In this document: piece after piece, positions 1,799 to 26,910 of the stretch
How the letters are laid out: each line of letters opens with the position of its first letter
Numbering within the stretch: the stretch's first letter is position 1
Source: a virus
Direction: 5' to 3' (one strand)
DNA length: 26,910 nt
Virus record (IMG/VR): IMGVR_UViG_3300006750_000059
Coordinates: 1 to 26,910 of that record
Position numbers and translations under genes: made by a program
The notes under the pieces: model-generated
The model's database searches: none
What the model saw: only the letters and a program-made list of their open reading frames with translations
What the model was told of the DNA's origin: nothing

Positions 1799-1801
1799 GA
1801 T

Positions 1802-1830
1802 TTGTATATGACGATAATAATTAATATATT
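1802..1830 (+). promoter_or_regulatory. Possible sigma70-type promoter before the virion block
   Basis: In the only sizeable gap of the left block, TTGTAT (1802-1807) and TATATT (1825-1830) are 17 nt apart, 36 nt before the strong AAGGAG ribosome binding site of the gene at 1866. In such AT-rich DNA a chance match is likely, so this is a weak call. Confidence 0.25.
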
Positions 1831-1865
1831 TAAAAGAATAATTTTAGGGAAAAAGGAGTAATATA

Positions 1866-2711
1866 ATGGCAAATGGTATATCACCATATCAAGTAGCTGG
1901 GCCAACAACAAGATTAATCCAGCAGTCAAAAATTAAAGAGAGTAAAGAAAAACAAGCAGACGTTGCAACCAAGAAACAGATGGGTGAAATGGAAGAGGAA
2001 TTTTATGCTGATATGGAAAAACTTGGGATTAAAGCTTCTGATGCTGCTGGAAAATATGATGAGCAAGATTCATATTTAAGTATTCTTGGTCTTTTAGGCA
2101 ATCCATTATTATCTGGGATTCTTGGAGCATTTACATCGGGAAGAAAAACAAAGCAAAAAAGAAAAGCAATGAAAGGGTTACTTGATATTGATGAAAGATA
2201 TGGAAAAACATTTTTAAGGGGTGATTATAGAGATTATCTTTCTGAGGCAAGGTCAATGCAGGTTGATGAGGGAGATATATTTAAAAATGCTTTAACTGGG
2301 GGATTTTCATCAGCTATGTTGAGTAAAATGCTTGGAAGTTCTAGGCCAGAAGGAGGAATACTTAGAAAGACTGCTCAAAAATTTCAAGATGTTGGTGGTG
2401 AAGGCAAATGGGGAGGATTATTTAAAGGTGTTGGGAAAACTCTTAATCCATTTGAACAAGAGGGATTATTTCAGCCGAATAGAAAAATCAATATTCCTGA
2501 AGCTCCAATGATAGGGCCGCAAACAAGAGGAGTTCAATTCACAGATAGATTAAGAGGATTATGGGGAGGAAGTAAAAATTTATTAGAACCATTAACAACG
2601 GGTGTTTCACAATTTGGACAACAGGGGTTTAATCAAGGTGGTAAAGGTGGTCAAATGATGGAATCATTGATGCCATTATTAATGTTGCTTCAAATGTTAG
2701 AAGGAGAATAA
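1866..2711 (+). CDS. Putative virion-associated protein, 281 aa
   Basis: Start chosen at ATG 1866 behind AAAAAGGAG with 6 nt spacing. The protein begins with a charged, probably helical N-terminal third (KIKESKEKQ... MGEMEEEFYADMEKLG), followed by a hydrophobic glycine-rich segment at about residues 70-90 (LSILGLLGNPLLSGILGAF) that could insert in a membrane or form an amphipathic helix. The middle is Gly/Lys-rich with no enzyme motif; the C-terminus is Gln/Gly-rich and ends in a Met/Leu-rich helix (MMESLMPLLMLLQMLEG). It is first in a series of four tightly packed genes ending in the giant protein at 4676, which suggests a set of internal or ejected virion proteins. That role is inferred from position and composition, and I do not recognise the family. 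Confidence 0.6.
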   Translation: MANGISPYQVAGPTTRLIQQSKIKESKEKQADVATKKQMGEMEEEFYADMEKLGIKASDAAGKYDEQDSYLSILGLLGNPLLSGILGAFTSGRKTKQKRKAMKGLLDIDERYGKTFLRGDYRDYLSEARSMQVDEGDIFKNALTGGFSSAMLSKMLGSSRPEGGILRKTAQKFQDVGGEGKWGGLFKGVGKTLNPFEQEGLFQPNRKINIPEAPMIGPQTRGVQFTDRLRGLWGGSKNLLEPLTTGVSQFGQQGFNQGGKGGQMMESLMPLLMLLQMLEGE

Positions 2712-2712
2712 T

Positions 2713-3180
2713 ATGTTTCAACAAAGTATATTAGAAAGTTTACAAAGTATTTTTGGGGAGATGGGATGGTCTCAGTTAACGTCTCTTACTCCAGAATCTA
2801 TTGCAAGTGGATTTGCAGAGCATTATGGGTTAAATGAACAAGATTTACCACCTGGGATGTTTCAATCAATAAGTCCTGAGATGCTACAAGCAGGTAGTTA
2901 TAAAACATACTCACCACAATTACAAGCAAAAGGACAATCTTTATTGTCTGGGTTATATGGCGGATTAGGTGGAAAAGAAGCTACAAAAGCTGCTGGTGGA
3001 TTTGCAGGTGGAAGTGGCTTTGGAAGACAACAAAGTGGTGTTAAAGATGTATATGGCAAAGAAATGGCAGGAGCAATTGGTGATGTTGGTCAACAATATT
3101 CACAAGGATTAGGACTTGTATCTGACCTTGTAAATCAATGGCATGAGCAAGCACAAAGAATTAGCATAGGACAAGGATAA
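2713..3180 (+). CDS. Putative virion-associated protein, 155 aa, Gly/Gln-rich
   Basis: Begins 1 nt after the previous stop, with GAAGGAG as ribosome binding site inside the end of that gene. The N-terminal half resembles a small helical domain (LQSIFGEMGWSQLTSLTPESIASGFAEHYGL). The second half is very rich in Gly and Gln (YGGLGGKEATKAAGGFAGGSG) and ends in a helical stretch (GLVSDLVNQWHEQAQRISIG). There are no cysteines, signal peptide or known motif. The low-complexity Gly/Gln part and the place just ahead of the giant protein fit a minor virion component, but the function is unknown. Confidence 0.55.
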   Translation: MFQQSILESLQSIFGEMGWSQLTSLTPESIASGFAEHYGLNEQDLPPGMFQSISPEMLQAGSYKTYSPQLQAKGQSLLSGLYGGLGGKEATKAAGGFAGGSGFGRQQSGVKDVYGKEMAGAIGDVGQQYSQGLGLVSDLVNQWHEQAQRISIGQG

Positions 3181-3184
3181 ATAT

Positions 3185-4672
3185 ATGGCAATTCCAGGAT
3201 TAGAGAAGGAACAAAGGTCTGATGATACACTCGCAAAATTACTTCGATTAGTACAATTTTCACAACAAGGACAAAAAGAAAGTCCTGTTGTACAAGATGC
3301 TATTCAATCATATAGTTCTTATATATTTAATTCATTTGATGATGTTGAACTCGAAAGCCATCAAGCAGGATTAGATAATTGGTATAATGAAAATTTAGGT
3401 GATTTAACTTCTTCTGAAATTGAAAGATATGAACTTGTAAAAAGAAGAATCCCAGAGCATCAAAAAAGGTATAAAGCTTTTGATGCGCAATATGCAATGA
3501 TGCACGATGAAATGGAAGAAATGAAAGTTTTGTTAGCTGGAGGAGTAGATGAAGAGGGAAATACTGTTGTAGGGTATAATGATTTAGATAACCAAGGAAA
3601 AGCTTTATTAGCAGGAACGATTAAAGAAAAAGAACTTGCATATATAAAAAGCAAAGAATTGTTAACTAAACAATTTGGAGACCTATTAAGCCATCCATCT
3701 GGGAAATTTACTACAGAATTTACAGGATTAAATTCTTGGGATGATATATATCAGCTAGGATTAGCTTCAATAGAAGACCATGTGCTTGATAAAAATGAGC
3801 TTTATACTATTTCAAGGGGAATAGATTATGGAAATCTTGAGGAGTATAATGCATATAAAGGTATTCAAGAACAAACACAATCAGATTCAAGAAGATTTAT
3901 TATGCAAGATGCAAGACCATTAATAGCTGAAGTTAACTACAAAGGCAAGCTTTTAGATGACTATGAATACATAATGGAATTAGCAGAGTCTGCGCAAACA
4001 AATCCTCAAGCACAAAAACGATTAAATGCTGTAGCTAGTTCAGTAGCTCATAGTACGGAATCTCAAACTAATCCATATGCAGGAACTCTTCCCACAGGCT
4101 TTTCTGAGCAGCAATTTACATGGCAACAATTATTAGACCAAGAAGCTAATGATTTAATAGAAATGTATCGAGCAGACATTCAAAATATTCAAGGAAATCT
4201 ATATCAACTTGAGAGTGGATTTCAAAATGTAAGCAGAGGAGAAAGTTTAACTCAAGGAATGCCTATTACATATAGTGGATGGGGAGGTGAGATAACTGAC
4301 CCATATTTAAGATATGAGCCTCCTAAAAAAGAAGATGGCCCAAAAAACAAAGTATCAAAAATGTCTGCAGATGAGAAAACCTTAATTCTTGATTATGAAA
4401 AAGATTATCAGAAAAAGCAAGAATTGAATAAATGGTTTAAAGACTATCCTTATACTGGGTCGTCTCCTGAAGAAAAAAAAGCATTTGGTACTCCAGAATA
4501 TTATAAAATAAGAACTGAAAAAAGCTCAGAGTTAAAGGTTTTAAAGATTAAGTGGAATAAAAAACAAACGCATTCTTACGGAGGAGATACTTGGGAGCAG
4601 AAACCTCAAATCTCAGCATATGAAATATATAAGCGTTATAATATGTCCCCTATAGGAAAGATGTTTGACTAA
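3185..4672 (+). CDS. Putative virion-associated protein, 495 aa, helical
   Basis: Start at ATG 3185, 4 nt after the previous stop, with AAGGA upstream. The protein is hydrophilic and mostly helical in character, with long Glu/Lys/Gln-rich segments (ERYELVKRRIPEHQKRYKAF, KEKELAYIKSKELLTKQFG) that look like coiled coil, and no membrane segment or enzyme motif. The middle contains Asp/Tyr-rich segments; the C-terminal ~120 residues are Lys/Tyr-rich (EDGPKNKVSKMSADEKTL). It lies 3 nt before the giant protein gene and is almost certainly made with it. By analogy with gene order in podovirus-like phages it could be an internal virion or scaffold partner of the giant; that is inference only. Confidence 0.55.
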   Translation: MAIPGLEKEQRSDDTLAKLLRLVQFSQQGQKESPVVQDAIQSYSSYIFNSFDDVELESHQAGLDNWYNENLGDLTSSEIERYELVKRRIPEHQKRYKAFDAQYAMMHDEMEEMKVLLAGGVDEEGNTVVGYNDLDNQGKALLAGTIKEKELAYIKSKELLTKQFGDLLSHPSGKFTTEFTGLNSWDDIYQLGLASIEDHVLDKNELYTISRGIDYGNLEEYNAYKGIQEQTQSDSRRFIMQDARPLIAEVNYKGKLLDDYEYIMELAESAQTNPQAQKRLNAVASSVAHSTESQTNPYAGTLPTGFSEQQFTWQQLLDQEANDLIEMYRADIQNIQGNLYQLESGFQNVSRGESLTQGMPITYSGWGGEITDPYLRYEPPKKEDGPKNKVSKMSADEKTLILDYEKDYQKKQELNKWFKDYPYTGSSPEEKKAFGTPEYYKIRTEKSSELKVLKIKWNKKQTHSYGGDTWEQKPQISAYEIYKRYNMSPIGKMFD

Positions 4673-4675
4673 AAA

Positions 4676-7600
4676 ATGAATTATATTCAATATTTAGAAG
4701 ACCAAAGAGAACAAAATCCAGCATATAAATCATACGGAAATGCAAGTCTATATCAGATGCTTTATCATTCAGACCCTGATTTACCCAAAGATTGGGAGTT
4801 TATGAATGATAAGATTAAAAATCAAAAATCAAAAAGAAAAAAACAGCAAGATAAAACCTCTCCAACCTTTGTTAATAATTTATTGGAAATGTCTGATTAT
4901 GGAATGATAGATGAAAATTCTTCAGAATGGGTGAAAAAGGCGTATAATGATTCCGCCACAGGAATAGCATATCAATTACATACAGGGCAAGCAAAATTTG
5001 GCATTGACCCAGAATGGGAAGCAAATATAGGAGAAGATATTTTGTCTCTTGTTCTTGGATTCACGATGCCTTTAGACTTAGCTTTAATGTTTACTGGTGG
5101 TTGGGTAGGAAAAGCTGGGCTTGCTGCATCTTCTGCCTCTAAAGGAGTTCAAAGATTGGCTGCAAAAGAAATGGTAAGAAAGAGTGGAGGGAAGATAACA
5201 TTAAGACAAGCAAAAAATCACGTAAAGAAAGTTGTATCTAATGAATCAGACGGAATGGGTCTTTTGTTTCCAAAAACACAAGAAAAAGCCGCTTTGTCAA
5301 GTCAATTCGCATCTCCAGTAAAATCTATGGCTAAAATGCAAGCTTCAACACTTGCAGTTTTTGAAGGAGTGAAAGGTGGATTAACTGAAGCTGTACATGG
5401 AGGTGATTGGAAAAAGGGTGTAAGAGATGGGGTTATGCACGGAGGTATGATGGGAGGTGTAGCTGGATTTATAGGAGGAAGTTTAAATGTAGTTAATGCA
5501 GCATTATATTCAAAAGCAATGGCTAAAGCTTACCAAGGAACTGCTGAAGGAGTTGCGACCAAACTTACAAAAAAAATTGGCAAAGATACTGCTAAGCTTG
5601 CTACTGGAAAAGTCGGGCAAGTATTAGCTGAAGGCACAGCTTTTACTGCTCCAGATGTTTATAAAGTAATTGATGATGACAATTTTACTTTAAGAGATTT
5701 AGGTAGAAATGCACTTGTTAATATAGGTATGATGGGACTTTTGAAAGCAAAGCATACTCTTATAGGAGAAGGTAAAAGAGAAGCAATGGATTATGTTAAA
5801 AAAGTATTAAAAGAGCAAGGAAATAAGTCTGATGTTGATTTACATATCAATAATATAACAACCTCTCTTGATGAAGGCAAAGGGGACTCTGATGGGATAG
5901 GAAACAAAGTATATAATAATACTGTCTCTATTGCAAAAGGATATTTAGAGAATGTTTCTAAAAAATTAGGAGATATTGATTTAATTGATGGAGGATTAGG
6001 TAAGATAACATTAGAGGAAGTTAAGAAACTTGAAAAAGCTATCGATAAATTAGAAGCAGATATATTGTCTGGGAAAAAAGATGAAAAAATTCATTATAAA
6101 GATTATAATGAGCATATGCAAACAATATTTGCTATATCTGAACTTTTAAATAAAAGTATTGGAATGCAAAAAAAAGATGTTACGATTAAAAAATCTGTCG
6201 TTAAAAGACTTGAAAATTTACAAGATAAATGGGATGGCGAAATTATTGGAGAATTGCGTAACAAAAATAAAATGAAGGAAGAACAAGTTTATAGTAGAGA
6301 GCAAAAAACAAATTTAAGACAGCAATTAACAAATTATATTGAAAATGCTATTAAATATAAAAGTAAAGCTTCAATAAAAAACTTTTTAATTGATAATGAA
6401 GGAGCTATTAAACCAAAGTACGATAGAAAAGGGAATCTCAAAGAAATTGAAATTAAAAACGAAAAAGACGTAAGGTGGGACTTGCTTAAAGAAAAGCTAG
6501 ATGCATATACTCCAAAGTCTAAAACAAAAATTCAAGTCGGTAAGGATATATATTCAGCAGAAGATGTTGAAGGCAAAAACAAAGGATTAACAGAAGGAAT
6601 AGTTGATACTACTACTAAAAAAAGAGAAGGTGGCTTAGAATATGTTCACGAAACCAAAAGGAAAGATGAAAGAAAAACAGTAGATGAGAGGATTCAAAAA
6701 CTTACTGAAATTATAGGAAGTAAAAAGTCTTTAGCTAGTGAAGTATTTAATGCTGCAAAAGAGAGGAATTTACTTAGAAAATCAAAAGAAATAAACAAAG
6801 ATAGTGTAGAAGGATTAGATGCAAATGCAGCATATCAAAAAAGTAAAGCGATATTATTACATTATGCAGAGCAACTTGGTTTAAATAAAATAATTAAAAG
6901 AAAAAAACCATTAGCAGAAGAAAGTTCTATAGAAAGAATCGATTTTCTTAATAGATTTACTAAATGGCTTGCTACTGAACGAGGAAAGAGTCTTCATGAA
7001 CTTTCTAATAAAGATGTAGATGCATGGATGGAGTCAGAAGGAAAAGGATATCATAAAACTAATTTAGTGGCTCTTTTTGAAACTCTCAAAAAAAATTCAA
7101 TGCTTTTAAATCCCCAAGCACTTACATATACTACTCCAAAAGAGATACTATCTCTTTTAAAACCTATAGGAGATACCGCAACAGAAGGATTAGAGGGGGC
7201 AAGAACTAAGCATATATTAGGGAAAGAATCTACTGAATATTGGAATTTTGGAAAAAATTTCGTTGAATATGTACAATCTAAAACAAATAGGATTAAAAAA
7301 TATGTGACGGATGATGTTGGGGAAAAGCTTGTTAAACTTTTCAATAGACAAGAAGGCGGTATTGGAGCTGAAGCTTTTATGTTTAAAAATGTAGACTATA
7401 AGCCTATAACAGGCAAGACTTTAAGGCCACTGATTCAAATGATATTTGGTGTAAAAAACATACCTGCTGGAATGGCTGGAGAGCATAGAGCTTTTAGATA
7501 TTCTTTTATGCAATGGGCTGTAGAAAAATATGGAGAAGGCTCAGAAGCAGGACAAGTATTAAAGCTTGTGCTTGGAGATAAACCTCCCAATGATATAAAA

Positions 7601-10600
7601 ACCGACCTTATAAAAGTATATGGTACAAAACAATATCATGGTAAACATGCAGCGAATGCTAAAAGATGGGTTAAAGAGTATTTAAAAGACATAGATGCAG
7701 GAGGATATGAAATTAAATTTGATGGAAGCACTAAAGGAAAAAGAGGCGTTTTTATTGAATATAAAAAAGGTGATAAAAGTGGGAGCGGAAAAGACAAGGG
7801 TGGATATAATACATGGGAAATAAAAGAAGGACTTAGAAAATTAAGAGAAGAATTTACAGATGATATTATTGAAGTTAAAGATAAAAAAGGAAAAACTGTC
7901 GATTTTGTGAAAAGAGAAACTGTTGAAACGATGATTGAATATATGATTCAAACTGCTCCTAGAATTAATGAAATTGTCCCAACATCAAAGCAAGTTGGAA
8001 ACTATACAAAATTGGCTCAAGAAGTATATGATGCGCAATATGCAGAAACACAGAGGTTAATAAAAGAGGGAAAAAAACCAAAATCTAAGCATAAATTATC
8101 TCCTAACGAAACTGCTGAAAGAATTGTTTCCTCTTTACAATTAAAAGAATTGATGCAATGGGCTAAAAAAGCATATAAAGATAAATTATTTTTTCCTAAA
8201 AAGTGGGAAAAAGATTTAGGTAAGTTTAATGGACAATATATACTTGGAAGATTGACAGGCCACTATATAGAAATTGCTACAGGTAGGGCTGGTAAAGATG
8301 TATTACCACATGAAGTTGTTGAGTTTGCCCTTCCTGCGCTTAAAACAATGGGCGATAAATTTAGTAAAGATTTGATTAAAAGAGCTACTTTTATGTTCAA
8401 GCAAAAAGGCGATAGTATAGAAAAAGCAGAGCATAGATTTATAGATAAGCTTGGAGAATATGTCGCAGATAGAGTTCTTGATAAAACAGTAGTAGGTAAA
8501 ATAAAATCATGGGTTACTGCTTTCAATAGCTATATGAGACAAAAACTTAATATCACAAATCCAAATGATGTAGAGAGAGTAAGACAGGAAATGATTGATA
8601 TTATAGGAGAAAAGGTTTACAAAGGAAGAATACCTCAAGACTATATACCAAGAGGGGAGGCTCTTAAAGTAAAATTTAAAAAAGCTAATACTGATATATT
8701 ATATAAAGAATTACTATCGGTTCATAATCAGACAAGAGCTATAATGAAAAAAGCTGTGAAACCCCCTTATAATGTTTCTAAGAAAAACATATTGAAGCTT
8801 GTTAGAGATGAACTTGGAATAGAGGTTGACCTTTCAAAAGGATTTAAACAAAGTCTTTGGAATATTAAAAAAAGTGATAAGAATTCAGTTAATGCTCATC
8901 AGTTATGGAATCTTCAATCAAGAATAAACTCTTTAACCGAAGGAAGAGGAGAAGGAAAAAGAAAAGGTTTAACTTCGAATGAAGAAATGGTAGTAAGCTT
9001 AGAAAAAGCAAAAAATATATTACCACAAATACGTAATAAAATATTTACAGATGTATTTGGCGTAAAATTTAAAGATGCTACAACAGAGCAAGTTAAAGAA
9101 TATCGTGCTTATTTATTAGTTGAAAAAGATTACAATTCCACAAATACTAGTGTCCTTGCTAGCTATAATCCATCAGTATCATTTAAAACTGGATTAAAGA
9201 CAGCATTTATGACAGTTGGTGATGTATTAAGAGCGCATGGTGGAAAAATGGGTAATGAAGTTGCTAAAAAAATAGACCAACACGATTACGTAAGAACAAA
9301 ATATTATGCAGAAATGAAAGTAATGATAGATGAAGTAGTAGATATAATCAATGCTGGAAGTTCAAATAGAATAGAAGCAGTTAAGGTAAAAAATAATTAT
9401 ATGCATTTGATGGATAAAAAACTTGTATCCAACGCTGTAAAGCAATTAACTAAACTTAGCAAAAAAGATAGTAAGTATGAAAAAGAACTTGATAATGTTA
9501 TTAGAATCGCTGCTAAATTTGGATATAGATATGTTCCTGATAAAAAAATGAGAATGAAATTAGTAGATGTTAAGAATGGGGATTTTTATCAAGCAAGAGT
9601 TCGATGGAAACAAATGACAGATGGAATATTTGATGCGTTAGGAGTTGAAGTATCCAAAAATACCAATGCAAGACAATATCTTGAAATAATGAAAGACTTA
9701 AATGGGATGTATATTAAAGATTATTTTACAAGAAGAGTTAGACATGAGGTTTTAGAAAATTGGGACACTGCTTCAAGGGATATTAAAAGACTTTCTAGTT
9801 CTATAAAAGCAAATTTAACAAAAAAAGACTTGAAAAAGATTGCAGATAAATTAGTACGAGATAAATTTATAGGAAAGGAATCAACCGACTATAAAGCCTT
9901 ACTAAAAAAAGATGGGAAATTTTTAGATGATTTTATAGGAAACGAAATATATAATATGTTTGCATTTGGCCCAGCTAAAGTAAGTCCATATTTTCTTAAA
10001 TCAAGAGGAGTTACATTACCTGAATATATTGAAATAAAAGTAAAAGGAAAGAAAAAATTAGTCAAATCATATGAATCAAGTATAGATGCAACAATGAATC
10101 ACTATGGATTAGGTATGTCTAAATTCCTAGCAACAGTAAGACTTTTTCCAGAATGGACAAATTTAGGAGGTAAATTTTCTGTTGAAACAGGAACAAGGGC
10201 TAGCATTATAAAGAAAATGGAAAACGATTCTGGAATAGGGCAATATACTTTAATGGCTATAAAGAGACAACTTGGATTAGATATGGATTCATCTAGCAAA
10301 CTTACCTCAAGGCAACAAAGATATATAGGCAATTTTGTAAATCTTGCTGCTGCTTCAGGTCTTTCTTCTCCAACGTCTGGATTTAAAAACCTTATTATAC
10401 AATTACCAAGAACTGTATATTTATATGGAGGAAGAAATACGATGAAGGCTATGGGGAGAGGTTTTAATACAATGACTGACCCTTTACTTTTCAAAGAAGC
10501 TGTTAGAGAAGGTCTTACGGGTTATGGACAAAAAACAACTTTGCTTGAAACTCCAGGAAAAATAACAAGAGGAATAAAGTTTTGGTTCGAGAACGTAAAT

Positions 10601-11911
10601 CAGATGGAAAGAAGCGAAAATTACAATAGAATTGTTTTAGCTGAGGCTGGAAAAATGTTTTTTAATGAGATGGTTGCTCAGTCAAGAGGAGAAAAGACGA
10701 TGTTTAACGTTCATAGACTCATGACTAAAAAACAAATAGAGGGAGAATACGATAGATACTTTAAAGAAGTATGGAGAATGACAGATAAGCAAATTGATTG
10801 GATTAGAAATGGAAAAGATGTTTATGGGAGTAAAGATTACGGAAAGTTAATGGAATGGGTAGGACACCAATCTCACAAAAGAGGAGCAGGAGCAACTGGT
10901 GTTGGAGACCTTCCACTATGGATGAGTAATAGATATGTTAAGCCTTGGACTCTATTTCAAAGAATAGCTATGTCTGTTACCAATGATACATACAAGAATG
11001 TTGTAAAGCCACTAACAAAAAATGGAAATATAGCCCCATTAGTTAAAGCAACAATAGGTCATGCTGTTTCTGGCGCAGCTTTATATCATATGTATAAATG
11101 GGTATTCAATCAGCAGATACCTCACGAAGAAAGTGAATATCTTGATAAAATAGTTGCAAATATATGGAGAAGTGAAGCATTTGGAGTATTTGGTGAAATT
11201 ATTCCAACGATAATGAAATATGGCTTTGGAAGACCTATTGCAGGAACAAGAGATGATATGCAATTAATAATGGAGCCGATTATCTGGAGAAATGCAACTT
11301 CAGCATGGGATGAAATGGTAAGATGGAACAAAGGCACTAAGACATTTAAAAATGCCGTACTTGATTGGGGAACTCAAACTGTTGTGTTAGCAGGACAAGG
11401 AGAAAAACTTTTTTATGCATTTAAACATCCACATGTAACTGAAAGTAAAAATTTAAAACAGCTCGAAAGGACATTTAGAGATAAAATCAATCATCCTACT
11501 CGAAGTGGAATGGTTGAGGGTAATGAAAGAAGCCCATTTTACTGGGATTTAAAACAAGCTATTTTAACAGCAAGTAATGATGAGGATATTGCAAAAGCAT
11601 ATTATGCAGCTTTTAATTACATTACCCATGAGCTTGAAAGTAAAAGAGGTTGGACAGTCCCATATTTAAGAGAAAAAGAAGCAAAAAGACTTTTAAAAAT
11701 TACTGTTGGGAACATGAACCCTTTAAGTATAACAGCAAATAAACAGGGAAGAGACATATCTTTAAGAAATGAATTTCTGGATTGGCTTAGTCCTAAAAAC
11801 AGAAGAATGGCAGAAAATTTAGAAAAAACTTTTCAAGTCAAAAGAAGAAGATACGAATCAATCATAAAAAATCCTGAATATAGAAGAAGATTTAGTATAT
11901 ACACTTATTAA
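4676..11911 (+). CDS. Giant polyvalent/internal virion-type protein, 2411 aa
   Basis: One uninterrupted frame of 2411 residues, the largest gene here. Visible parts in order: hydrophobic patches near 125-155 and 255-275; a Lys/Glu-rich coiled-coil part (about 420-600); a region at about 755-985 resembling a tyrosine recombinase (SAM-like helices FLNRFTKWLATERGKSLHEL, then Arg843 in GARTKHIL, Lys869 in SKTNR, RAFR at 938-941, Tyr982 in KVYG); a degenerate metallopeptidase-like motif HEVVE at 1212-1216; a long helical centre; and a C-terminal third with LPLWMSNRYVKPWTLFQR and a hydrophobic segment (IGHAVSGAALYHMYKWVF), a pattern common at the ends of phage large polyvalent proteins. Such proteins are thought to be packed in the virion and ejected with DNA. 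That role and the domain calls are inference from pattern and position. Its stop overlaps the convergent - strand gene by 4 nt. Confidence 0.7.
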   Translation: MNYIQYLEDQREQNPAYKSYGNASLYQMLYHSDPDLPKDWEFMNDKIKNQKSKRKKQQDKTSPTFVNNLLEMSDYGMIDENSSEWVKKAYNDSATGIAYQLHTGQAKFGIDPEWEANIGEDILSLVLGFTMPLDLALMFTGGWVGKAGLAASSASKGVQRLAAKEMVRKSGGKITLRQAKNHVKKVVSNESDGMGLLFPKTQEKAALSSQFASPVKSMAKMQASTLAVFEGVKGGLTEAVHGGDWKKGVRDGVMHGGMMGGVAGFIGGSLNVVNAALYSKAMAKAYQGTAEGVATKLTKKIGKDTAKLATGKVGQVLAEGTAFTAPDVYKVIDDDNFTLRDLGRNALVNIGMMGLLKAKHTLIGEGKREAMDYVKKVLKEQGNKSDVDLHINNITTSLDEGKGDSDGIGNKVYNNTVSIAKGYLENVSKKLGDIDLIDGGLGKITLEEVKKLEKAIDKLEADILSGKKDEKIHYKDYNEHMQTIFAISELLNKSIGMQKKDVTIKKSVVKRLENLQDKWDGEIIGELRNKNKMKEEQVYSREQKTNLRQQLTNYIENAIKYKSKASIKNFLIDNEGAIKPKYDRKGNLKEIEIKNEKDVRWDLLKEKLDAYTPKSKTKIQVGKDIYSAEDVEGKNKGLTEGIVDTTTKKREGGLEYVHETKRKDERKTVDERIQKLTEIIGSKKSLASEVFNAAKERNLLRKSKEINKDSVEGLDANAAYQKSKAILLHYAEQLGLNKIIKRKKPLAEESSIERIDFLNRFTKWLATERGKSLHELSNKDVDAWMESEGKGYHKTNLVALFETLKKNSMLLNPQALTYTTPKEILSLLKPIGDTATEGLEGARTKHILGKESTEYWNFGKNFVEYVQSKTNRIKKYVTDDVGEKLVKLFNRQEGGIGAEAFMFKNVDYKPITGKTLRPLIQMIFGVKNIPAGMAGEHRAFRYSFMQWAVEKYGEGSEAGQVLKLVLGDKPPNDIKTDLIKVYGTKQYHGKHAANAKRWVKEYLKDIDAGGYEIKFDGSTKGKRGVFIEYKKGDKSGSGKDKGGYNTWEIKEGLRKLREEFTDDIIEVKDKKGKTVDFVKRETVETMIEYMIQTAPRINEIVPTSKQVGNYTKLAQEVYDAQYAETQRLIKEGKKPKSKHKLSPNETAERIVSSLQLKELMQWAKKAYKDKLFFPKKWEKDLGKFNGQYILGRLTGHYIEIATGRAGKDVLPHEVVEFALPALKTMGDKFSKDLIKRATFMFKQKGDSIEKAEHRFIDKLGEYVADRVLDKTVVGKIKSWVTAFNSYMRQKLNITNPNDVERVRQEMIDIIGEKVYKGRIPQDYIPRGEALKVKFKKANTDILYKELLSVHNQTRAIMKKAVKPPYNVSKKNILKLVRDELGIEVDLSKGFKQSLWNIKKSDKNSVNAHQLWNLQSRINSLTEGRGEGKRKGLTSNEEMVVSLEKAKNILPQIRNKIFTDVFGVKFKDATTEQVKEYRAYLLVEKDYNSTNTSVLASYNPSVSFKTGLKTAFMTVGDVLRAHGGKMGNEVAKKIDQHDYVRTKYYAEMKVMIDEVVDIINAGSSNRIEAVKVKNNYMHLMDKKLVSNAVKQLTKLSKKDSKYEKELDNVIRIAAKFGYRYVPDKKMRMKLVDVKNGDFYQARVRWKQMTDGIFDALGVEVSKNTNARQYLEIMKDLNGMYIKDYFTRRVRHEVLENWDTASRDIKRLSSSIKANLTKKDLKKIADKLVRDKFIGKESTDYKALLKKDGKFLDDFIGNEIYNMFAFGPAKVSPYFLKSRGVTLPEYIEIKVKGKKKLVKSYESSIDATMNHYGLGMSKFLATVRLFPEWTNLGGKFSVETGTRASIIKKMENDSGIGQYTLMAIKRQLGLDMDSSSKLTSRQQRYIGNFVNLAAASGLSSPTSGFKNLIIQLPRTVYLYGGRNTMKAMGRGFNTMTDPLLFKEAVREGLTGYGQKTTLLETPGKITRGIKFWFENVNQMERSENYNRIVLAEAGKMFFNEMVAQSRGEKTMFNVHRLMTKKQIEGEYDRYFKEVWRMTDKQIDWIRNGKDVYGSKDYGKLMEWVGHQSHKRGAGATGVGDLPLWMSNRYVKPWTLFQRIAMSVTNDTYKNVVKPLTKNGNIAPLVKATIGHAVSGAALYHMYKWVFNQQIPHEESEYLDKIVANIWRSEAFGVFGEIIPTIMKYGFGRPIAGTRDDMQLIMEPIIWRNATSAWDEMVRWNKGTKTFKNAVLDWGTQTVVLAGQGEKLFYAFKHPHVTESKNLKQLERTFRDKINHPTRSGMVEGNERSPFYWDLKQAILTASNDEDIAKAYYAAFNYITHELESKRGWTVPYLREKEAKRLLKITVGNMNPLSITANKQGRDISLRNEFLDWLSPKNRRMAENLEKTFQVKRRRYESIIKNPEYRRRFSIYTY

Positions 11912-12885: not shown

Positions 12886-13357
12886 TAAAATATTCTCCTC
12901 TCGCATAATGTGTTATGAGAATAGCATCAGATGTTGCAAGTGTTAGTTTATTGACCTTTGGATATAACTCTCTTGCCTTTTCTTTAAGCCACCTCTTTCT
13001 CACATCTCTTTTTAAAGCCTTTGGACAACCAACCCATTTAATCCATTCAACAGGTATGACTGTATTCATCTTAATTTCATGTGATGCTGCAATACCAAGC
13101 CATTGCCCATAGTTTGTTCCATATGAGAATGCTGCTCTTACTGCATTTGTTGGTCTTGCCCACACTCTCTCCATTAATAACCTTATCTTATCAGGAGCGG
13201 TATTTCCCATTGTAACTTCAAAAAGTAAAGCCATCTCCTCACTTGACTTTGGACATTTAAATGCTTTCATTTTTCCTCTGCCATCAATTACAGCAATACC
13301 TCCGCCTGCTCCTGGGTCTATCCCTATGTATTTAAAACGGGATGTCGTTTGAGTCAT
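12878..13357 (-). CDS. RuvC-like Holliday junction resolvase
   Basis: A 159-residue protein with RNase H-fold nuclease signatures of RuvC: the first strand IGIDPGAGGGIAVID with Asp14, a second acidic strand LLMERVW with Glu63, a helical section GTNYGQWLGIAA as in RuvC relatives, and a C-terminal helix LATSDAILITHYA with Asp144. These three acids are expected to hold two metal ions for nicking four-way junctions made during replication and recombination. Length is close to the usual 150-190 residues. The ATG lies 26 nt inside the end of the helicase gene, so the DNA encoding the helicase tail NDIPF also encodes the first residues of this protein in another frame. Dimer formation and junction preference are family knowledge, not visible here. 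Confidence 0.8.
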   Translation of the reverse strand: MTQTTSRFKYIGIDPGAGGGIAVIDGRGKMKAFKCPKSSEEMALLFEVTMGNTAPDKIRLLMERVWARPTNAVRAAFSYGTNYGQWLGIAASHEIKMNTVIPVEWIKWVGCPKALKRDVRKRWLKEKARELYPKVNKLTLATSDAILITHYARGEYFNE

Positions 13358-14672
13358 TGTTTATCATCTCCTCTATTGAATTGTATACCTTACATTTATC
13401 TCCATCATATCCTAAGTCAGTAACACCTGAGTCTCCGTACCTTACCTTACAAGCATGTAACGATATTATATTTTTACCTTTACCTGCTTCTCCTTTAACC
13501 TTATAATCATAATAACAAAAGAATACATTCTCAGCTACTTGTTCTATTGCTCCGCTCTCAGCAAGGTCGGATAATTGAGGATTATATGACTTCCCCCTAC
13601 TATCTCTTTCAATTCCTCTATTTAATTGTGATGCAAGAACTACAACAGAATTAGTTTCTTTTGCAAGCCATTTATAATCATTAACAAGTCTTTCTATTTG
13701 AAGTCTTCTTGAGTCTTCCCAACCCTCACAGGCGATAAGCTGTATATAATCATCAAATATAATATCAGGCTTAAATTTCTTCACCTCACTTGATGACATT
13801 GCAAAATCTCTTATATTATCAAACATTAAAAACCTATCCTTGCTATATTTCTTTTTTATTTCTGTGATAGTATTATTAACAACAAGTAAATCATTCTCAG
13901 CATAAACATTCTTTCTTACCATTGAGTATGATAGCTGTTCTGATTCAAGACATATTATCTTTTTAAATAGTTCTGAGTTAGGTAGCTCTCTACTAAAAAA
14001 CAATGCTCTTTGACCATTCTCTAAAGCCTTAGATAAAAGGTTAATCATTACTGTTGTTTTACCATGACCTGGTCTACCACCAATAATTGTAACCTCTCCC
14101 CTTGTTAAACCACCTGCAAATTTATCTATATTTGAATATCCAGTCTTTACAAGTTTGGTTGTTTTGTTTTTAATATCAAGAAGTGTATCACTAATAACAT
14201 CTTCAATATCTTGTGCCTGTGAAGGCCTTGAACTTAACAGTTCTCCATATAAAGAATGTGCTTTACTTATACTCTTATAAATATCAGTGTCATTTGATTT
14301 TGCTTTTTCACTTATTGTCTCAGATTCTACTATAACTTTTCTAAGTAAATACTTTTCATATATTCTTGTAGCATAATACTCCGCAGCACCTTTGCTGCAT
14401 GTATTACCTGTGCATCCTGTTATGTAGTATTTAGTTAATCCTTTATCCGAGTCTTTTTTTGTTACTGTGGAACACATAGAAAGTGTATCTATATGCTCTC
14501 CGCTTCTTTTCATATCAGTAATACGTTTCCATAGTAATTTTGCTTTATCTTGATAAAAAACATCATCATCCATAAAGTATTTAGAAACCTTATCATATTC
14601 TTCTATATTGTGTATTACTGAGCCTAAGACAACATCTTCTGAATCGATGTCGTATGGTAGTGTCGTCTCCAT
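13332..14672 (-). CDS. dnaB: Replicative DnaB-like DNA helicase
   Basis: A 446-residue protein with DnaB layout. The N-terminal domain starts LPYDIDSEDVVLGSVI, the usual DnaB N-domain opening. A linker follows, then a RecA-like ATPase domain: Walker A GGRPGHGKT (198-206), FFSRELPNSEL (225-235) like the DnaB FSLEM segment, Walker B IIFDDYIQLI (304-313), SQLNRGIERD (348-357), LSDLAESGAIEQVAE (367-381) and an arginine-finger KVRYG (409-413). It should form a hexamer that unwinds DNA 5'-3' at the phage fork. The C-terminus ends in DSNDIPF, the kind of tail normally found on SSB and also present on the SSB-like protein at 16666. No primase or polymerase gene is seen in the window. A methyltransferase gene lies 13 nt upstream. 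Confidence 0.9.
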   Translation of the reverse strand: METTLPYDIDSEDVVLGSVIHNIEEYDKVSKYFMDDDVFYQDKAKLLWKRITDMKRSGEHIDTLSMCSTVTKKDSDKGLTKYYITGCTGNTCSKGAAEYYATRIYEKYLLRKVIVESETISEKAKSNDTDIYKSISKAHSLYGELLSSRPSQAQDIEDVISDTLLDIKNKTTKLVKTGYSNIDKFAGGLTRGEVTIIGGRPGHGKTTVMINLLSKALENGQRALFFSRELPNSELFKKIICLESEQLSYSMVRKNVYAENDLLVVNNTITEIKKKYSKDRFLMFDNIRDFAMSSSEVKKFKPDIIFDDYIQLIACEGWEDSRRLQIERLVNDYKWLAKETNSVVVLASQLNRGIERDSRGKSYNPQLSDLAESGAIEQVAENVFFCYYDYKVKGEAGKGKNIISLHACKVRYGDSGVTDLGYDGDKCKVYNSIEEMINNDSNDIPF

Positions 14673-16665: not shown

Positions 16666-17292
16666 CTAGAATGGAATGTCATTTTTATTTTCTCCTGTTA
16701 TAGTTTTCTTCTTACCACTATCCCATTTTTTGCAAAACTTACAATCCCAATACTGCCTTTTATTACCCTCTTTGTCAGTCCAAGGTCTTCCCCAATCAAC
16801 AACAGCAGTTACAGGTTGTCCTAAGAAATCTTCAGGGGATAAATTTGGAAGTATTTGAACTTCAATATCCTCTCCACCTATATTTCTTTTTTCTATAGGA
16901 CAGTTAATATCTATTGTTTCGCAAAACTTAAGATAACTGGTGTTTCCAGTTGAATTAGATTCAAAAGTATCTTTTTCAGTTGGTTCAAGGAATCTCCATA
17001 GTTTACCTAAGAACTTCTTACCAACATATACGTGTCCTTTGGTGGCTTTAGAGTCTCCATTTATGTCCACATAAGTAAAGTCTTTGCTTTTGTTTTCATC
17101 AGCAACCTCAACAGTGTATGTATACAGCCTTGCCTTATATTTCCCCTGTACATCAAGCACCTTTGATTCGACTTTAGTTATATGACCAAGATATTCACCT
17201 TTTGCAAACGGTGTTATATCCTTCTTTTCTGTAGCTTTATAAAAGCTTTGTTCTTTTGTTATGTCGTTAAACATATCGTTTACGTCTGCCAT
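16666..17292 (-). CDS. SSB-like single-stranded DNA-binding protein
   Basis: A 208-residue protein that ends in ENKNDIPF, the acidic/aromatic tail used by bacterial and phage SSBs to dock replication partners. The body has an alternating strand pattern consistent with an OB fold (GEYLGHITKVESKVLD...KARLYTYTVEVADE...FTYVDING...KGHVYVGKKFLG) and a late Trp/Cys segment (YWDCKFCKKW). It is near 200 residues, longer than host SSBs, and could also be read as a DUF669-type phage protein often found beside recombinases. It lies between the annealing-protein gene (its first base is shared with that stop) and the mini-HTH gene, which supports a role in coating DNA for recombination and replication. No canonical SSB N-terminal motif is obvious, so the fold is inferred. 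Confidence 0.6.
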   Translation of the reverse strand: MADVNDMFNDITKEQSFYKATEKKDITPFAKGEYLGHITKVESKVLDVQGKYKARLYTYTVEVADENKSKDFTYVDINGDSKATKGHVYVGKKFLGKLWRFLEPTEKDTFESNSTGNTSYLKFCETIDINCPIEKRNIGGEDIEVQILPNLSPEDFLGQPVTAVVDWGRPWTDKEGNKRQYWDCKFCKKWDSGKKKTITGENKNDIPF

Positions 17293-17858
17293 TATTTATC
17301 TCCTTTTTCTTTTATCATGTTTTGTATCTTTTCGATAACAGCTTCATAGTTACTTACATGCAGTTCCATATTGGTAGCCTTATTCTTTAAGTCATCAACA
17401 AACTTCTTCCCTAAAGGTTTTGCTAAATCATAAAGCTTCTTTGCCTCATCAGGTGTCAATGCATCAGGCTCAGGTAAATCTTCTCCTGCAAAGATATATA
17501 ACCCAAGTCCATGTAAAGCGATGCATTTAGCCAAAGCTCTCTGTAAAGAGGTATTAATTTGAAACGCATTTGGTTGTTCTACTGATTTATTACGATTATC
17601 AAGTACAGGGTGTATTTGTGATAGTGATATACCATCAACCTCTACCCATACATCAACAAAATAACCGCACTGTGTTACAAAGAATGGCGAACCATCCTCT
17701 GCTTTAGTAACTCCCCATCTCGCAGTAGGACATGCCTTTTTAAGCTCTGCTACTGCATTTGCCCAAGATAAGTAATTAAATTGACCTTTCTTTTCAACAT
17801 ACTTACTTACATCGGTTTTGTAGAGTTTCATGAATGTGCTTTGTGTTGTTTTACTCAT
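17292..17858 (-). CDS. DUF1071/Sak3-type single-strand annealing protein
   Basis: Start placed at ATG 17858 (MSKTTQSTFMKLYKTDVSKY): AAGGAGA is correctly spaced, and longer readings run through the previous gene. The 188-residue product has the DUF1071 pattern: KKGQFNYLSWANAVAELKKACP near 28-50, FFVTQCGYFVDVWVEVDG near 65-80, then HPVLDNRNK, PNAFQINTSLQRALAKCIALHGLGLYIFAGEDLPE at about 107-140 (given by its ends). DUF1071 proteins are Rad52-like phage annealing proteins that pair complementary single strands. Adjacent genes supply a 5'-3' exonuclease candidate and an SSB-like protein, the usual partners. The start lies 8 nt inside the sigma-like gene, so translation is probably coupled. Confidence 0.8.
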   Translation of the reverse strand: MSKTTQSTFMKLYKTDVSKYVEKKGQFNYLSWANAVAELKKACPTARWGVTKAEDGSPFFVTQCGYFVDVWVEVDGISLSQIHPVLDNRNKSVEQPNAFQINTSLQRALAKCIALHGLGLYIFAGEDLPEPDALTPDEAKKLYDLAKPLGKKFVDDLKNKATNMELHVSNYEAVIEKIQNMIKEKGDK

Positions 17859-18561
17859 ATTCACTCTCCTTTTTTTGTTTTTCTTTTTTATACTCAGCTG
17901 ATAGCTCTCTTGAGTATTTTTGTCCATAATTATAATTTGAAATTTTTTCTCTTGCTTCTTTTTTTGCTGATGGTGAAGTAATAGCATAAGGCGAAAGCTT
18001 ATCACCTCTTGCCCTGTGCCTTAGTCTTCTTAATGCTTTTTCTTTAATTTGCCTAGTTCTTTCCCTTGTTAAACCAAATTCTTTACCAACTTTTTCTATA
18101 GACATTGGTTCGTCTACCCCAATCCCAAAATGCATCTTTATTACATCTCTTTCTCTGTCTTTTAATGTTTCTAGGGCATCTCTGACTTCTTGTTCAAGTC
18201 CTATCTCATGGTCAATGTCATCAGTACTATAATCAGACTCAAGCATACGTAACTCTTTTGACTCAAATGATAACATTTTTTCAACTGGTATTTCTTTTAC
18301 TATTCTTCTAACAGTACCTTTGTTTTTTTCTACAACCTTATTGTATTGGTCAAACAGTTCATATAATTCACAGTCAAGCAGTTGAGCTATTTTAACTTGG
18401 TCTTCAAGTGATTTAAAAGAATGTCTTAAATTGGCATATTCTACAAGATATGAATAACTTATCCCAGAAACCCTTGAAAACTCAGCTATTGAATTATACT
18501 TGCTTCTTTCAAGTGCTTTCATAAATGCAGAATTTTTAAATCTAACCTCAGCTCTTATCAT
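17851..18561 (-). CDS. XRE HTH - sigma70 region 4 fusion regulator
   Basis: A 236-residue protein with two DNA-binding parts. Residues ~20-72 form an XRE/Cro-type helix-turn-helix (SIAEFSRVSGISYSYLVEY ... VKIAQLLDCELYELFDQ). Residues ~125-190 match sigma70 region 4 of RpoD-like factors: ALETLKDRERDVIKMHFGI, MSIEKVGKEFGLTRERTRQI, KEKALRRLRHRARG, the -35-recognition helix-turn-helix. Region 2, needed to melt the -10 element, is absent, and the usual core-binding parts of a full sigma are missing. It may therefore act with host polymerase by contacting the flap or the promoter -35, or redirect it, rather than replace sigma. The C-terminal ~45 residues are basic and Lys/Glu-rich. It lies 2 nt after the Cas4-like gene with no strong ribosome binding site. 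An ordinary phage sigma is the alternative reading. Confidence 0.75.
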   Translation of the reverse strand: MIRAEVRFKNSAFMKALERSKYNSIAEFSRVSGISYSYLVEYANLRHSFKSLEDQVKIAQLLDCELYELFDQYNKVVEKNKGTVRRIVKEIPVEKMLSFESKELRMLESDYSTDDIDHEIGLEQEVRDALETLKDRERDVIKMHFGIGVDEPMSIEKVGKEFGLTRERTRQIKEKALRRLRHRARGDKLSPYAITSPSAKKEAREKISNYNYGQKYSRELSAEYKKEKQKKESEYE

Positions 18562-18563
18562 AT

Positions 18564-19385
18564 CTATCTTGGTGGGTTACAGTGACTTCTAAATTGACAA
18601 TAGTTACATTGCCATTTCTGAACTGGAGAAACTCCAACTCTAAAATCAGGTAATCCTTGTTTGTGTTCATCGTTTATGTTCTTCCAAAAAAGGTATGCTC
18701 TTGACACATATGTAAGAGGAACTTGTACAGCTCTCATATCTGAATTATCTTTGTTATAATAATACAAATACATACCATCTAATCTTCCAAACATTTCTTT
18801 TATTGCATATCCATATGTTCCTAACTGCAACTCATAATGGATAGATGTATTGACTTCTTTTTTTCTGCCAAACTTCATCTTCCAAGACCATCCACCACAA
18901 GTTTTAATATCATATAAATAAATTGGCTGCTCAGGAGAGGTGTTGTCTTTAGCCACTACATCATAAAAACCCCTAACATTCAGTTCTTTTATCTGAACTT
19001 CTCCTTCAACATGAAATTCAATTTCTTTTTCTTTATTTTTATTTTCTTTTTCTCTAATAGTAGAGATACTATTATCTCTATAATTATCTCTATTAAGTGC
19101 GTGTGTGCGCGTAAGAGAACTTTGAATATCCTCGTGGACAACAGTACCAAGTCTCAAAAGCCTTGATGTTCTCGTATCTATAATATTTGTTTTCTCAGCT
19201 TTCTCAACAGATTCAAAATACAATTTCCTTGAACAAGAACCTGCTCCACTTGCATGATACCAATCCTCATTACCCTCATATCTTGCTATTCTGTTTTCTT
19301 CTTGTTTATCATCTAAGAATCCTTTATAGATACCCTCAATATCTATTGGACTTTTACTTATCATTTTTAGTTCCAACATAATCAT
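18564..19385 (-). CDS. Cas4-like Fe-S exonuclease (PD-(D/E)XK)
   Basis: Up to 273 residues; an ATG at 19364 (MISKSPID) is an alternative start and neither has a clear ribosome binding site. Cas4/RecB-family features, numbered from 19385: Cys51 in SCSRKLYF, His84 in LGTVVHEDI, Asp142 in GFYDVV, Asp159 and Lys161 in YLYDIKT, the Gln/Tyr helix YELQLGTYGYA (Gln187), and three C-terminal cysteines C260-x2-C263-x5-C269. Cys51 plus these three should hold a 4Fe-4S cluster as in Cas4 and AddB. The likely role is 5'-3' resection feeding the adjacent annealing protein. Odd point: residues ~91-121 are a hydrophilic insert (THALNRDNYRDN...REKENKNKEKE) between His84 and Asp142 whose DNA is a diverged copy of the sequence at the right window edge. 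No CRISPR genes accompany it. Confidence 0.8.
   Translation of the reverse strand: MIMLELKMISKSPIDIEGIYKGFLDDKQEENRIARYEGNEDWYHASGAGSCSRKLYFESVEKAEKTNIIDTRTSRLLRLGTVVHEDIQSSLTRTHALNRDNYRDNSISTIREKENKNKEKEIEFHVEGEVQIKELNVRGFYDVVAKDNTSPEQPIYLYDIKTCGGWSWKMKFGRKKEVNTSIHYELQLGTYGYAIKEMFGRLDGMYLYYYNKDNSDMRAVQVPLTYVSRAYLFWKNINDEHKQGLPDFRVGVSPVQKWQCNYCQFRSHCNPPR
19024..19113. repeat. Left copy of ~90-bp diverged repeat (inside Cas4-like gene)
   Basis: On the + strand it reads TCTTTTTCTTTATTT, a T/C-rich part ending TTCTTTTTCTCTA, short units of the type TATCTCTATAAT and TATCTCTATTAA, and the alternating purine-pyrimidine tract GTGCGTGTGTGCGCGTA. The same order of elements is present at 26810-26898. 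Here it is translated as the Lys/Glu/Asn-rich insert of the nuclease. Inverted units around 19060-19075 (CTAATAGTAGAG) add dyad symmetry. Confidence 0.7.
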
Positions 19386-19506
19386 TTATAAACTTATGTA
19401 AAAGCTCAGAAGCAGAGTTGTATCCATCTAACAGACATTTTGCTCTGAATCTCTTCCATGTGTTTTTGTCTATATTTTTGATTATATATGTTGTAATATC
19501 ACTCAT
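19354..19506 (-). CDS. Ribbon-helix-helix (Arc-like) protein, 50 aa
   Basis: ATG at 19506 with AAGGA about 10 nt upstream. The product starts MSDITTYIIKNIDKNTWKRF, then RAKCLLDGYNSASELLHKF, then INDYV: a beta strand, a helix starting at the Asp-Lys turn, a G-x-S turn and a second helix, the classic ribbon-helix-helix form of Arc/CopG repressors, which dimerise and place the strand in the DNA major groove. Its end overlaps the start of the Cas4-like gene by 32 nt. It may control this operon; no operator was identified. Confidence 0.6.
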   Translation of the reverse strand: MSDITTYIIKNIDKNTWKRFRAKCLLDGYNSASELLHKFINDYVGTKNDK

Positions 19507-20205: not shown

Positions 20206-20378
20206 TTACCACCCCAATAGTATTCATCTTCAGTCATGCCTTTATATTCCCAAATATGAACTCTATGCGCCCACACTGTCTCAATGTCTTTTATGTGAGG
20301 CAGATTGTTTATGTTGTATCCTAATGAATATCCCACTTCATCAAGAAAGTTCTGTGCGTGGTCTGCTATTTTACTCAT
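20202..20378 (-). CDS. Hypothetical 58-aa protein
   Basis: ATG at 20378 overlaps the end of the upstream Zn-ribbon gene by 8 nt, with GGGAGAAAA before it. The product is acidic and aromatic (MSKIADHAQNFLDEVGYSLG, ending EDEYYWGGK). No family is recognised. Confidence 0.55.
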   Translation of the reverse strand: MSKIADHAQNFLDEVGYSLGYNINNLPHIKDIETVWAHRVHIWEYKGMTEDEYYWGGK

Positions 20379-20640
20379 CTTTTTTCTCCCTTTTTATTTC
20401 TTCCCATTCTGATATATGCACTGGTCGCGCCATATCATTACAACTATCACACCAATACTGAGTGTCATCAACCTCATTTGCCCATTTATAGTAAGGTTCT
20501 CCATCAATAATTATACAACTATTGCTTTTTGCAAATATTGGCTCTTCTATTTCCTCAGAGCCACACATATTACATACAACAAGGTCATCTTCTCTGAGTT
20601 TTTTTAGGTCTTCTCGCATTTTCTTTGTTGTTTTTAGCAT
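20371..20640 (-). CDS. Zn-ribbon protein, 89 aa
   Basis: ATG at 20640 behind GGAGGG (9 nt). Two CxxC knuckles form a probable zinc ribbon: VVCNMCGSEEIEEP near 21-34 and YWCDSCNDMARP near 62-73, separated by a ~38-residue insert with IIIDGEPYYKWANEV. The N- and C-termini are charged helices. The family is not known to me; phage proteins of this kind often contact nucleic acid or host polymerase. It overlaps the upstream gene by 7 nt. Confidence 0.6.
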   Translation of the reverse strand: MLKTTKKMREDLKKLREDDLVVCNMCGSEEIEEPIFAKSNSCIIIDGEPYYKWANEVDDTQYWCDSCNDMARPVHISEWEEIKREKKDE

Positions 20641-21666: not shown

Positions 21667-22497
21667 TTATTTTTGTGTGAATTGTACTTTGTCTGACCTT
21701 CCATAGTTATACACATCTTGAATATTCTCTGTATATCCTTTTGGATTTGCTTGTTTTGTTAATAACTTTGAACATTTTGATAACTGTATCATCATTCTTT
21801 CATGGTCATATAACCCTGTATCAACTGCTGTTCCTAGTCCCCATATGAATCTTGCGTGTCTTGATTGTTCTATGTTATATGTTTTTTCAAAGTCCTTAAC
21901 ATATCTAAGTATATCATTACCACGTTCAACTGTTAAAGCTTTCCAGTTAAGTTCTTTAAATGACGAATTGGCATAAAAGCCACCATACATCATCACTAAT
22001 GCTGTCAGTGGTATCTTCTCTTCCTTATACACTTTATCAAGGAAGCAATAATCATCAATGTTATCAGTAACTCCCCATTTTAAATAGTCTCCCAACTTCC
22101 AGTTTCTTGATTTGTTATTAACTAAGACCATTGCTCTTTTTGATACATCTCTAAAAACATTGTATACAACAGGAAGTCCAAGCCTTTTGGAAGCAGTTAT
22201 TACGTGCTGTCCATCATATGCTTCATATTTCCCTTTATGTTTAATTGATGGTGTAACAGAAATAGCTGATATTACTCCAACCTCTTTAATGCTTCCCATA
22301 ATACCTTTCACATTACTGTTAACTTCATCTCTTTGATGTTTAGGAATAACAAACAATGAATAATCTGTTGTTTCTCCTGTTTTTATGTATTTAGAATACT
22401 CTGTTATATTAAACTTTAGTTTTCTTGCTTTTACTCTAAAGCCACCAACAGGTAGATTGTTTTGTTTATTAACACCTGCGTCTTTTACTGTTTCCAT
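21667..22497 (-). CDS. ParB/Srx-fold domain protein, 276 aa
   Basis: Start set at ATG 22497 (METVKDAGVNK), 6 nt after AAGGAGAAT; the longer frame to 22536 has no ribosome binding site. Residues ~60-130 look like the ParB/sulfiredoxin (ParB nuclease) fold: SLFVIPKHQRDEVNSN, VKGIMGSIKEVGVISAISVT (helix plus GV-x-x-P-like turn), then YEAYDGQHVITASKRLG, where YDGQHVI resembles the ParB DGQHR/GERR nucleotide-binding motif. The C-terminal half is helical (EERGNDILRYVKDFEKTYNI-like, LSKCSKLLTKQANPKG). Such phage proteins may hydrolyse CTP/NTP or cut DNA; no partner ParA or parS is seen here. Function is inferred from fold only. Confidence 0.6.
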   Translation of the reverse strand: METVKDAGVNKQNNLPVGGFRVKARKLKFNITEYSKYIKTGETTDYSLFVIPKHQRDEVNSNVKGIMGSIKEVGVISAISVTPSIKHKGKYEAYDGQHVITASKRLGLPVVYNVFRDVSKRAMVLVNNKSRNWKLGDYLKWGVTDNIDDYCFLDKVYKEEKIPLTALVMMYGGFYANSSFKELNWKALTVERGNDILRYVKDFEKTYNIEQSRHARFIWGLGTAVDTGLYDHERMMIQLSKCSKLLTKQANPKGYTENIQDVYNYGRSDKVQFTQK

Positions 22498-22499
22498 CT

Positions 22500-22652
22500 T
22501 TATTCTCCTTTTGTTATGTTTCTTATCACTCTCCAAACTCCTTGTCTGATTACTTCTTGATACAGTTTTTCTTTAACTTGTTCTGAATCAAGCTCTCCAT
22601 CTTCCCACAAATCTTCATCAGGTACTTCTTCCCAACCTTTAAATTCATTCAT
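22500..22652 (-). CDS. Hypothetical 50-aa acidic protein
   Basis: ATG at 22652 with GGAGAAAG upstream, overlapping the previous stop by 8 nt; its end carries the AAGGAG used by the ParB-like gene. The first half is very acidic (WEEVPDEDLWEDGELDSE), the second a basic helix (YQEVIRQGVWRVIRNITKG). Family unknown. Confidence 0.55.
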   Translation of the reverse strand: MNEFKGWEEVPDEDLWEDGELDSEQVKEKLYQEVIRQGVWRVIRNITKGE

Positions 22653-26588: not shown

Positions 26589-26611
26589 GTCGCGCATTGT
26601 GTAGCAATAGA

Positions 26612-26639
26612 AAGCCTCACTTATTAGTGGGGCTTTTTT
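26612..26639 (+). terminator. Rho-independent terminator of the + cassette
   Basis: AAGCCTCAC and GTGGGGCTT form a 9-bp stem (one U-G) with loop TTATTA, followed by TTTT. It ends the three-gene + transcript. Confidence 0.9.
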
Positions 26640-26809
26640 GTTTGTGTTCCTTATCTTTATAAATATATAAAAATTTTATCTCATTATAATTTAGAGTTTT
26701 AATTCAATTTTCAACCTAATTTCAACCCATATGGGGACTTTTCGGGGGGGGTTGGTGGATACAGAAACACTCACACCCATTCTGATATAATTTTTGAAAC
26801 TTTGTAACA
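26640..26809. other. Non-coding DNA with eight-G run
   Basis: No supportable gene. The first part is AT-rich. The palindrome CCCATATGGG (26726-26735) is followed by ACTTTTC, a run of eight G (26744-26751) and TTGGTGG, an unusual GC patch in DNA this AT-rich, with several G tracts within 30 nt that could form a G-quadruplex on the + strand. Confidence 0.5.
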
Positions 26810-26898
26810 TCTTTTTCTTTATTTAATTTCTTTTTCTCTATTACTGTATCTCTATTATATCTCTATAATAATCTCTATAAGAGTGCGTGCGCGCGTAT
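26810..26898. repeat. Right copy of ~90-bp diverged repeat, iteron-like
   Basis: TCTTTTTCTTTATTT, then TTTCTTTTTCTCTA, three units close to TATCTCTATTA/TATCTCTATAA/TAATCTCTATAA, then GTGCGTGCGCGCGTATA. The order and much of the sequence match 19024-19113. Here no reading frame crosses it intact: all three - strand frames contain stops, so it is non-coding. It runs to within 12 nt of the window edge. Confidence 0.7.
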
Positions 26899-26910
26899 AC
26901 TGATATTTAA

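Follow-up and report, generated by a model that had tools for sequence, protein, structure and literature searches.

The closest described systems are the replication origins of the phages SPP1 and lambda. SPP1 has two similarly organised origins, oriL and oriR, with direct repeats and an AT-rich unwinding element: one lies in coding sequence and the other is intergenic, and some 12-13 kb of the 44-kb genome separate them (PMC6316719, PMC3485210). The coding origin is situated in gene 38, the gene of the protein that binds the origin, and the early genes of this phage include an exonuclease, an annealing protein, a DnaB-type helicase and a resolvase (PMC6316719, PMC3485210). In lambda, the origin features iterons beside an A+T-rich region inside the replication gene O (PMC5043065).

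The window, by which we mean the whole stretch of DNA analysed here, is an entire IMG/VR record: a linear fragment of 26,910 bases. Two further contigs, L004 and L005, match it at 99.9-100% and extend beyond its right end. The window carries two copies of a composite element, which we term array A and array B. The components of both arrays and their surroundings are as follows:

18564-19385, minus strand: Cas4/RecB-like PD-(D/E)XK nuclease of 273 aa, in which array A is a low-confidence insert between His84 and Asp142
19022-19113, plus strand: array A, in the same order and orientation as B, within the nuclease gene coded on the minus strand
19022-19052, plus strand: leader of array A
19053-19093, plus strand: units of array A
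19097-19113, plus strand: alternating G-C tract of array A
19354-19506, minus strand: ribbon-helix-helix-like protein of 50 aa, directly 5' of the nuclease gene and present in nearly all relatives; candidate binder
26609-26638, plus strand: intrinsic-terminator-like hairpin that closes the small plus-strand gene cluster upstream of B (L005 351-380)
26720-26751, plus strand: short G-C-rich block (CAACCCAT..GGGG..GGGGGGGG) upstream of B, matched by a similar block at this position in relatives
26768-26809, plus strand: conserved block CACTCACACCCATTCTGA..TTTTTGAAACTTTGTAACA, directly 5' of B and found at B only
26810-26897 (also given as 26810-26898), plus strand: array B, non-coding
26810-26835, plus strand: T/C leader of array B
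26836-26880, plus strand: TATCTCTA-type units of array B
26883-26897, plus strand: alternating G-C tract of array B
26897-26910, plus strand: first bases of the stretch leading to terS (most relatives have TATAATCAAATAAATGAATTATGCAAG..), which continues off the window into L005

In both window copies a T/C-rich leader (TCTTTTTCTTTATTT..TTTCTTTTTC) is followed, in the same orientation, by two to four units of the TATCTCTATTA kind and then by GTGCGTG..GCGCGTA. Aligned locally, A (19010-19130) and B (26800-26910) score 89, whereas 5000 dinucleotide-preserving shuffled pairs average 20.6 (SD 3.4, maximum 39); the next-best window match to either segment reaches only 37. A BLASTN search of the record with 26750-26910 recovers itself and 19024-19113 on the same strand (80%, E 3.5e-16); the latter segment and 26810-26898 are each other's best match within the record. 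Given an alignment far above the shuffles, a mutual best match and a shared order of parts, the duplication is real and an AT-rich coincidence is excluded. An earlier sequence-only reading had described just such a ~90-bp duplication in conserved order and orientation with a non-coding right-hand copy, and both points stand: B lies between the terminator-like hairpin and terS. That reading further took the G-C tract as evidence against coincidence. The duplication does beat the shuffles, but the tract is its least general part: across the relatives it ends most copies of A, is missing from some, and is missing from most copies of B, being found at B only in the clade of the window. A scan of duplex stability places both arrays within the least stable 0.7% of 60-bp windows; polypyrimidine-run scoring, tried alongside, was dropped as too lenient to help.

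Comparison with SPP1 reveals several likenesses: A and B are two similarly organised sites with repeats adjoining an AT-rich stretch of low stability; A is in coding sequence of the replication region, while B is intergenic; and the early region has genes for DnaB, a Sak annealing protein and a RuvC-like resolvase as well as for the nuclease (Cas4/RecB-like), a complement similar to the replication genes of SPP1. Differences from SPP1 are that the coding site is in a Cas4-like nuclease gene, that no initiator is recognised, that B precedes terS, and that the units co-vary between both sites across lineages. With lambda the locus shares tandem sites by A+T-rich DNA within a gene of the replication region; lambda differs in having a single origin with nearly perfect inverted repeats of 19 bp, in a gene that encodes the initiator itself (PMC5043065). 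The early region of the window also codes for a protein that we ourselves read, without database support, as SSB-like (16666-17292); it and DnaB (13332-14672) share the C-terminal sequence NDIPF, which resembles the tip of bacterial SSB proteins. Between the nuclease and Sak genes is a gene for a protein combining an HTH-like N-terminus with a sigma-70 region 4 (17851-18561), which has no relative at E<1e-3 in the 19 related records.

The paired arrangement is widespread among related phages. When 12 of these were each searched with their own A, the top two sites were A and B in the same orientation, the second-best site, B, scoring 43-91 versus null maxima of 32-39; a few third sites lie slightly above the null, reaching 47. 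The second site is at the same place in all 12 genomes, and the separation of A and B ranges from 5.8 to 8.9 kb. The search of contig and relatives proposed by the sequence-only reading thus finds the arrays recurring as a pair. Each copy consists of a T/C-rich leader and short tandem units of ~11-15 bp. Relatives of TerS provide 80 loci, and the leader and units are seen 5' of terS in nearly all of those whose upstream region is covered, with an extra small gene between array B and terS in some. One deeper relative, G024, has degenerate units in A and no recognisable B. The region upstream of terS in this phage (L069 about 1640-3200) has other DNA instead, with a small reverse-strand ORF and possibly a structured RNA, for which Rfam yields no match. 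Searches with the DNA of B against phage and plasmid records returned no match; TerS has no relative in GTDB genomes, hence no host was found, and neither TerS nor the nuclease has a relative among INPHARED phages, hence no cultured relative. Matches to DNA patterns for the leader or the units across all of IMG/VR are confined to this phage family; as far as these units go, the module is therefore no general mobile element.

As the sequence-only reading had it, array A encodes a hydrophilic insert between His84 and Asp142 of the nuclease, and both residues are invariant in the alignment. In the AlphaFold2 model of the nuclease, residues 92-119 have a pLDDT under 50. The insert is not unique to this phage, a point which that reading had raised: among the 48 nuclease relatives in IMG/VR, all those at 64-80% identity possess it, and in L047 and L049, which are more distant, the insert has diverged. 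We compared codon usage in the insert with that in the rest of the gene across 25 non-redundant nuclease genes. Within the insert Asn is encoded by AAT in 136/137 cases versus 64% elsewhere in the gene (p 7e-20), Lys by AAA in 97% versus 71%, Asp by GAT in 56/56 versus 83%, and Tyr by TAT in 27/27 versus 74%. The G-C tract of the insert displays the opposite bias, with Arg as CGC in 20% versus 2% and Ala as GCG in 38% versus 4%. AT-rich and GC-rich synonymous biases thus coexist in one region, each where the DNA motif needs it, which argues that the region is conserved at the DNA level, beyond the protein. This is strong but not complete proof of a DNA-level constraint on A, as slippage could copy codons as well. 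The spacing of TCTCTA is mostly 12 or 15 in A, in keeping with the codon frame, and mostly 11-14 in B.

The units are of different types in different lineages: TATCTCTATTA (the TATCTCTA type); a GTAC-containing type; and TATTATTATA (the TATTATTA type). In phages with both arrays, TCTCTA units in A are accompanied by TCTCTA units in B, and where they are absent from A they are absent from B. The units of a phage's own A and B are more alike than those of mismatched phages, both by local alignment (p 1e-5 for 14 phages; 3e-3 for eight clade representatives) and by 5-mer similarity (p 2e-5 and 2e-4, respectively); the use of clade representatives lessens but does not remove the phylogenetic dependence of this test. 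The leader alone has no own-pair excess (p 0.3). Random AT-rich control windows from the same genomes give a z of -0.4 +/- 1.0 (maximum 2.3), as against 5.3 for the units. In the nuclease tree and in the separate TerS tree, changes of unit type fall in clades that correspond ({G014,G016}, {G018} and {G031}), and about three independent switches are seen with both arrays in one record.

That the units pair within a genome and the leader does not fits a trans-acting DNA-binding protein, and does not fit a gene remnant or a copied segment. Arrays A and B are hence best explained as a matched pair of cis-acting sites. It is likely that one protein, of the phage or of the host, binds the units of both in trans, its specificity having changed several times. 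The sequence-only reading had noted the look of a protein-binding array, with iterated units next to easily melted DNA in a linker, and the covariation of the units within genomes bears this out at the level of sequence comparison.

Iterons read by one protein would be expected to look like this, with an easily melted common leader and with units that change together within a genome. By analogy with oriL and oriR of SPP1, our main reading is that the pair may work as a dual replication origin, to which we assign a probability of about 0.45. At A, within the recombination-replication module of nuclease, Sak, DnaB and RuvC-like resolvase, the protein would open the leader and DnaB would be loaded; B, in the intergenic space 5' of terS, would act either as a further origin or as a fork barrier by which replication is switched to making concatemers for packaging. 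The replication origin entertained in the sequence-only reading remains the best candidate mechanism. GC skew was rejected as an origin marker: cumulative skew, put forward earlier as a check, flips with gene direction and is uninformative. Searches with the early proteins recognised no initiator or primase family. That the gene holding A encodes a nuclease and not a recognised initiator counts against an origin, and the promoter-like, terS-proximal setting of B would fit a role in transcription or packaging equally. If the dual-origin reading is true, the origins of a whole uncultured phage family, one with no INPHARED or GTDB relatives, would have been located from sequence alone; the prediction sits at two defined 90-bp sites. 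Within-genome covariation of two site arrays would then be a way to find site pairs and their binders in viral dark matter, and the lineage-specific units would be relevant to complementation and exclusion between related phages.

The setting of B invites two other explanations. Upstream are small plus-strand genes and the terminator-like hairpin, and downstream is an operon in the order: terS, a small ORF, an endolysin-like protein, TerL and portal. The start codon of terS is ~50 bases past the right edge of the window; its identification rests on PHROG 51 (E 2e-6 to 1e-8 in three members), with Terminase_2 under the Pfam cut-off. Conserved DNA that is absent at A flanks B on both sides: the G-C-rich block and CACTCACAC..TGTAACA on the upstream side, and TATAATCAAAT..GCAAG with a TATATT box a few bases from the start codon before terS. 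Since B has conserved neighbours that A lacks, it probably has a role as a late-promoter operator or in packaging, in addition to or instead of one in replication. Rfam has no match in the window, L005, L100 or L133.

A possible though doubtful explanation is that the arrays are operators: one regulator would govern the early-to-late switch of the packaging operon through B, an operator or enhancer array, and would also bind A as a second operator, which would act by looping or on its own early operon. The position of B 5' of terS, followed by the conserved TATAATCAAAT and TATATT box, is as expected of such an operator, and a candidate regulator exists in the ribbon-helix-helix-like protein, the sole small DNA-binding candidate coded beside A in nearly all relatives. 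A, however, is surrounded by coding sequence, where no promoter role is apparent, and yet retains its leader as well as its units; the arrays are not evident upstream of the candidate regulator's own gene, and its strand residues do not covary with the units beyond phylogeny.

Ribbon-helix-helix proteins act on tandem operators. The small gene beside A in nearly all relatives is in keeping with this; unlike those proteins, its product has no family match and only a modest structural match. Its AlphaFold2 model (pLDDT 84) has two helices after an extended N-terminus; the closest structures are NikR and AtaR, with a modest Z of 5.7 for the NikR N-terminal domain and a best Foldseek E of 0.92. 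PDB sequence searches with this protein and with the SSB-like protein returned nothing significant. In a scan of early proteins against the units (17 tests, uncorrected), p fell below 0.02 only for DnaB (0.008, weak), the nuclease (0.008, its gene containing the array) and a small paired-cysteine protein (20371-20640; 0.019). The binder might also be a host protein. A variant of the origin reading that we consider rather improbable has one origin inside the Cas4-like nuclease gene, with a new initiator, possibly the tiny ribbon-helix-helix-like protein, reading the lineage-switching units, such that the origins of related phages would be mutually incompatible.

It is unlikely that B is a pac or cos site read by TerS and A a secondary or decoy site. 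B does lie 5' of terS with the extra conserved G-C-rich and CACTCACAC blocks, and contig ends are common here: in this phage family 36/69 cluster within 1 kb upstream of terS. These ends, however, are spread over about 100-1000 bp with no single base favoured, TerS distance does not track unit distance (partial r -0.01), and it is hard to see what a packaging signal within the nuclease gene would be for. Variation between strains, a physical end of the genome or an effect of assembly could lie behind the clustering, and a strain-variation hot spot upstream of terS may be present as a side feature. The right end of the window (26788-26910) and the left end of L003 overlap by 123 bp across B (family contigs L003, L094-L172).

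Low-complexity DNA without any binding function, kept alike by gene conversion or slippage or left over from a second gene, is a very unlikely source of the pair. Tandem units and strand-biased low-complexity DNA can indeed expand by slippage, but the units are more alike within than between genomes while the leader is not, AT-rich control windows lack an own-genome excess, and the second site keeps its place in 12/12 genomes. The remnant of a second related gene, offered in the sequence-only reading, is not supported, given the terS operon that follows B and the presence of B at this position in nearly all relatives whose terS upstream region is covered; whole-segment gene conversion is likewise unsupported, since the leader does not co-vary. 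Arrays bound for partition or silencing by a ParB-like protein coded between A and B (21667-22536) are extremely improbable: the arrays are tandem repeats and the protein has a ParB-like match (PHROG E 1.3e-9; NCBIfam E 3.9e-6, below its cut-off), but the gene was found in only 4/19 related records (E<1e-3) and most of the others keep the arrays.

Elsewhere in the window, the structural region contains a single ORF of 2411 aa (4676-11911), which probably codes for an internal virion protein.
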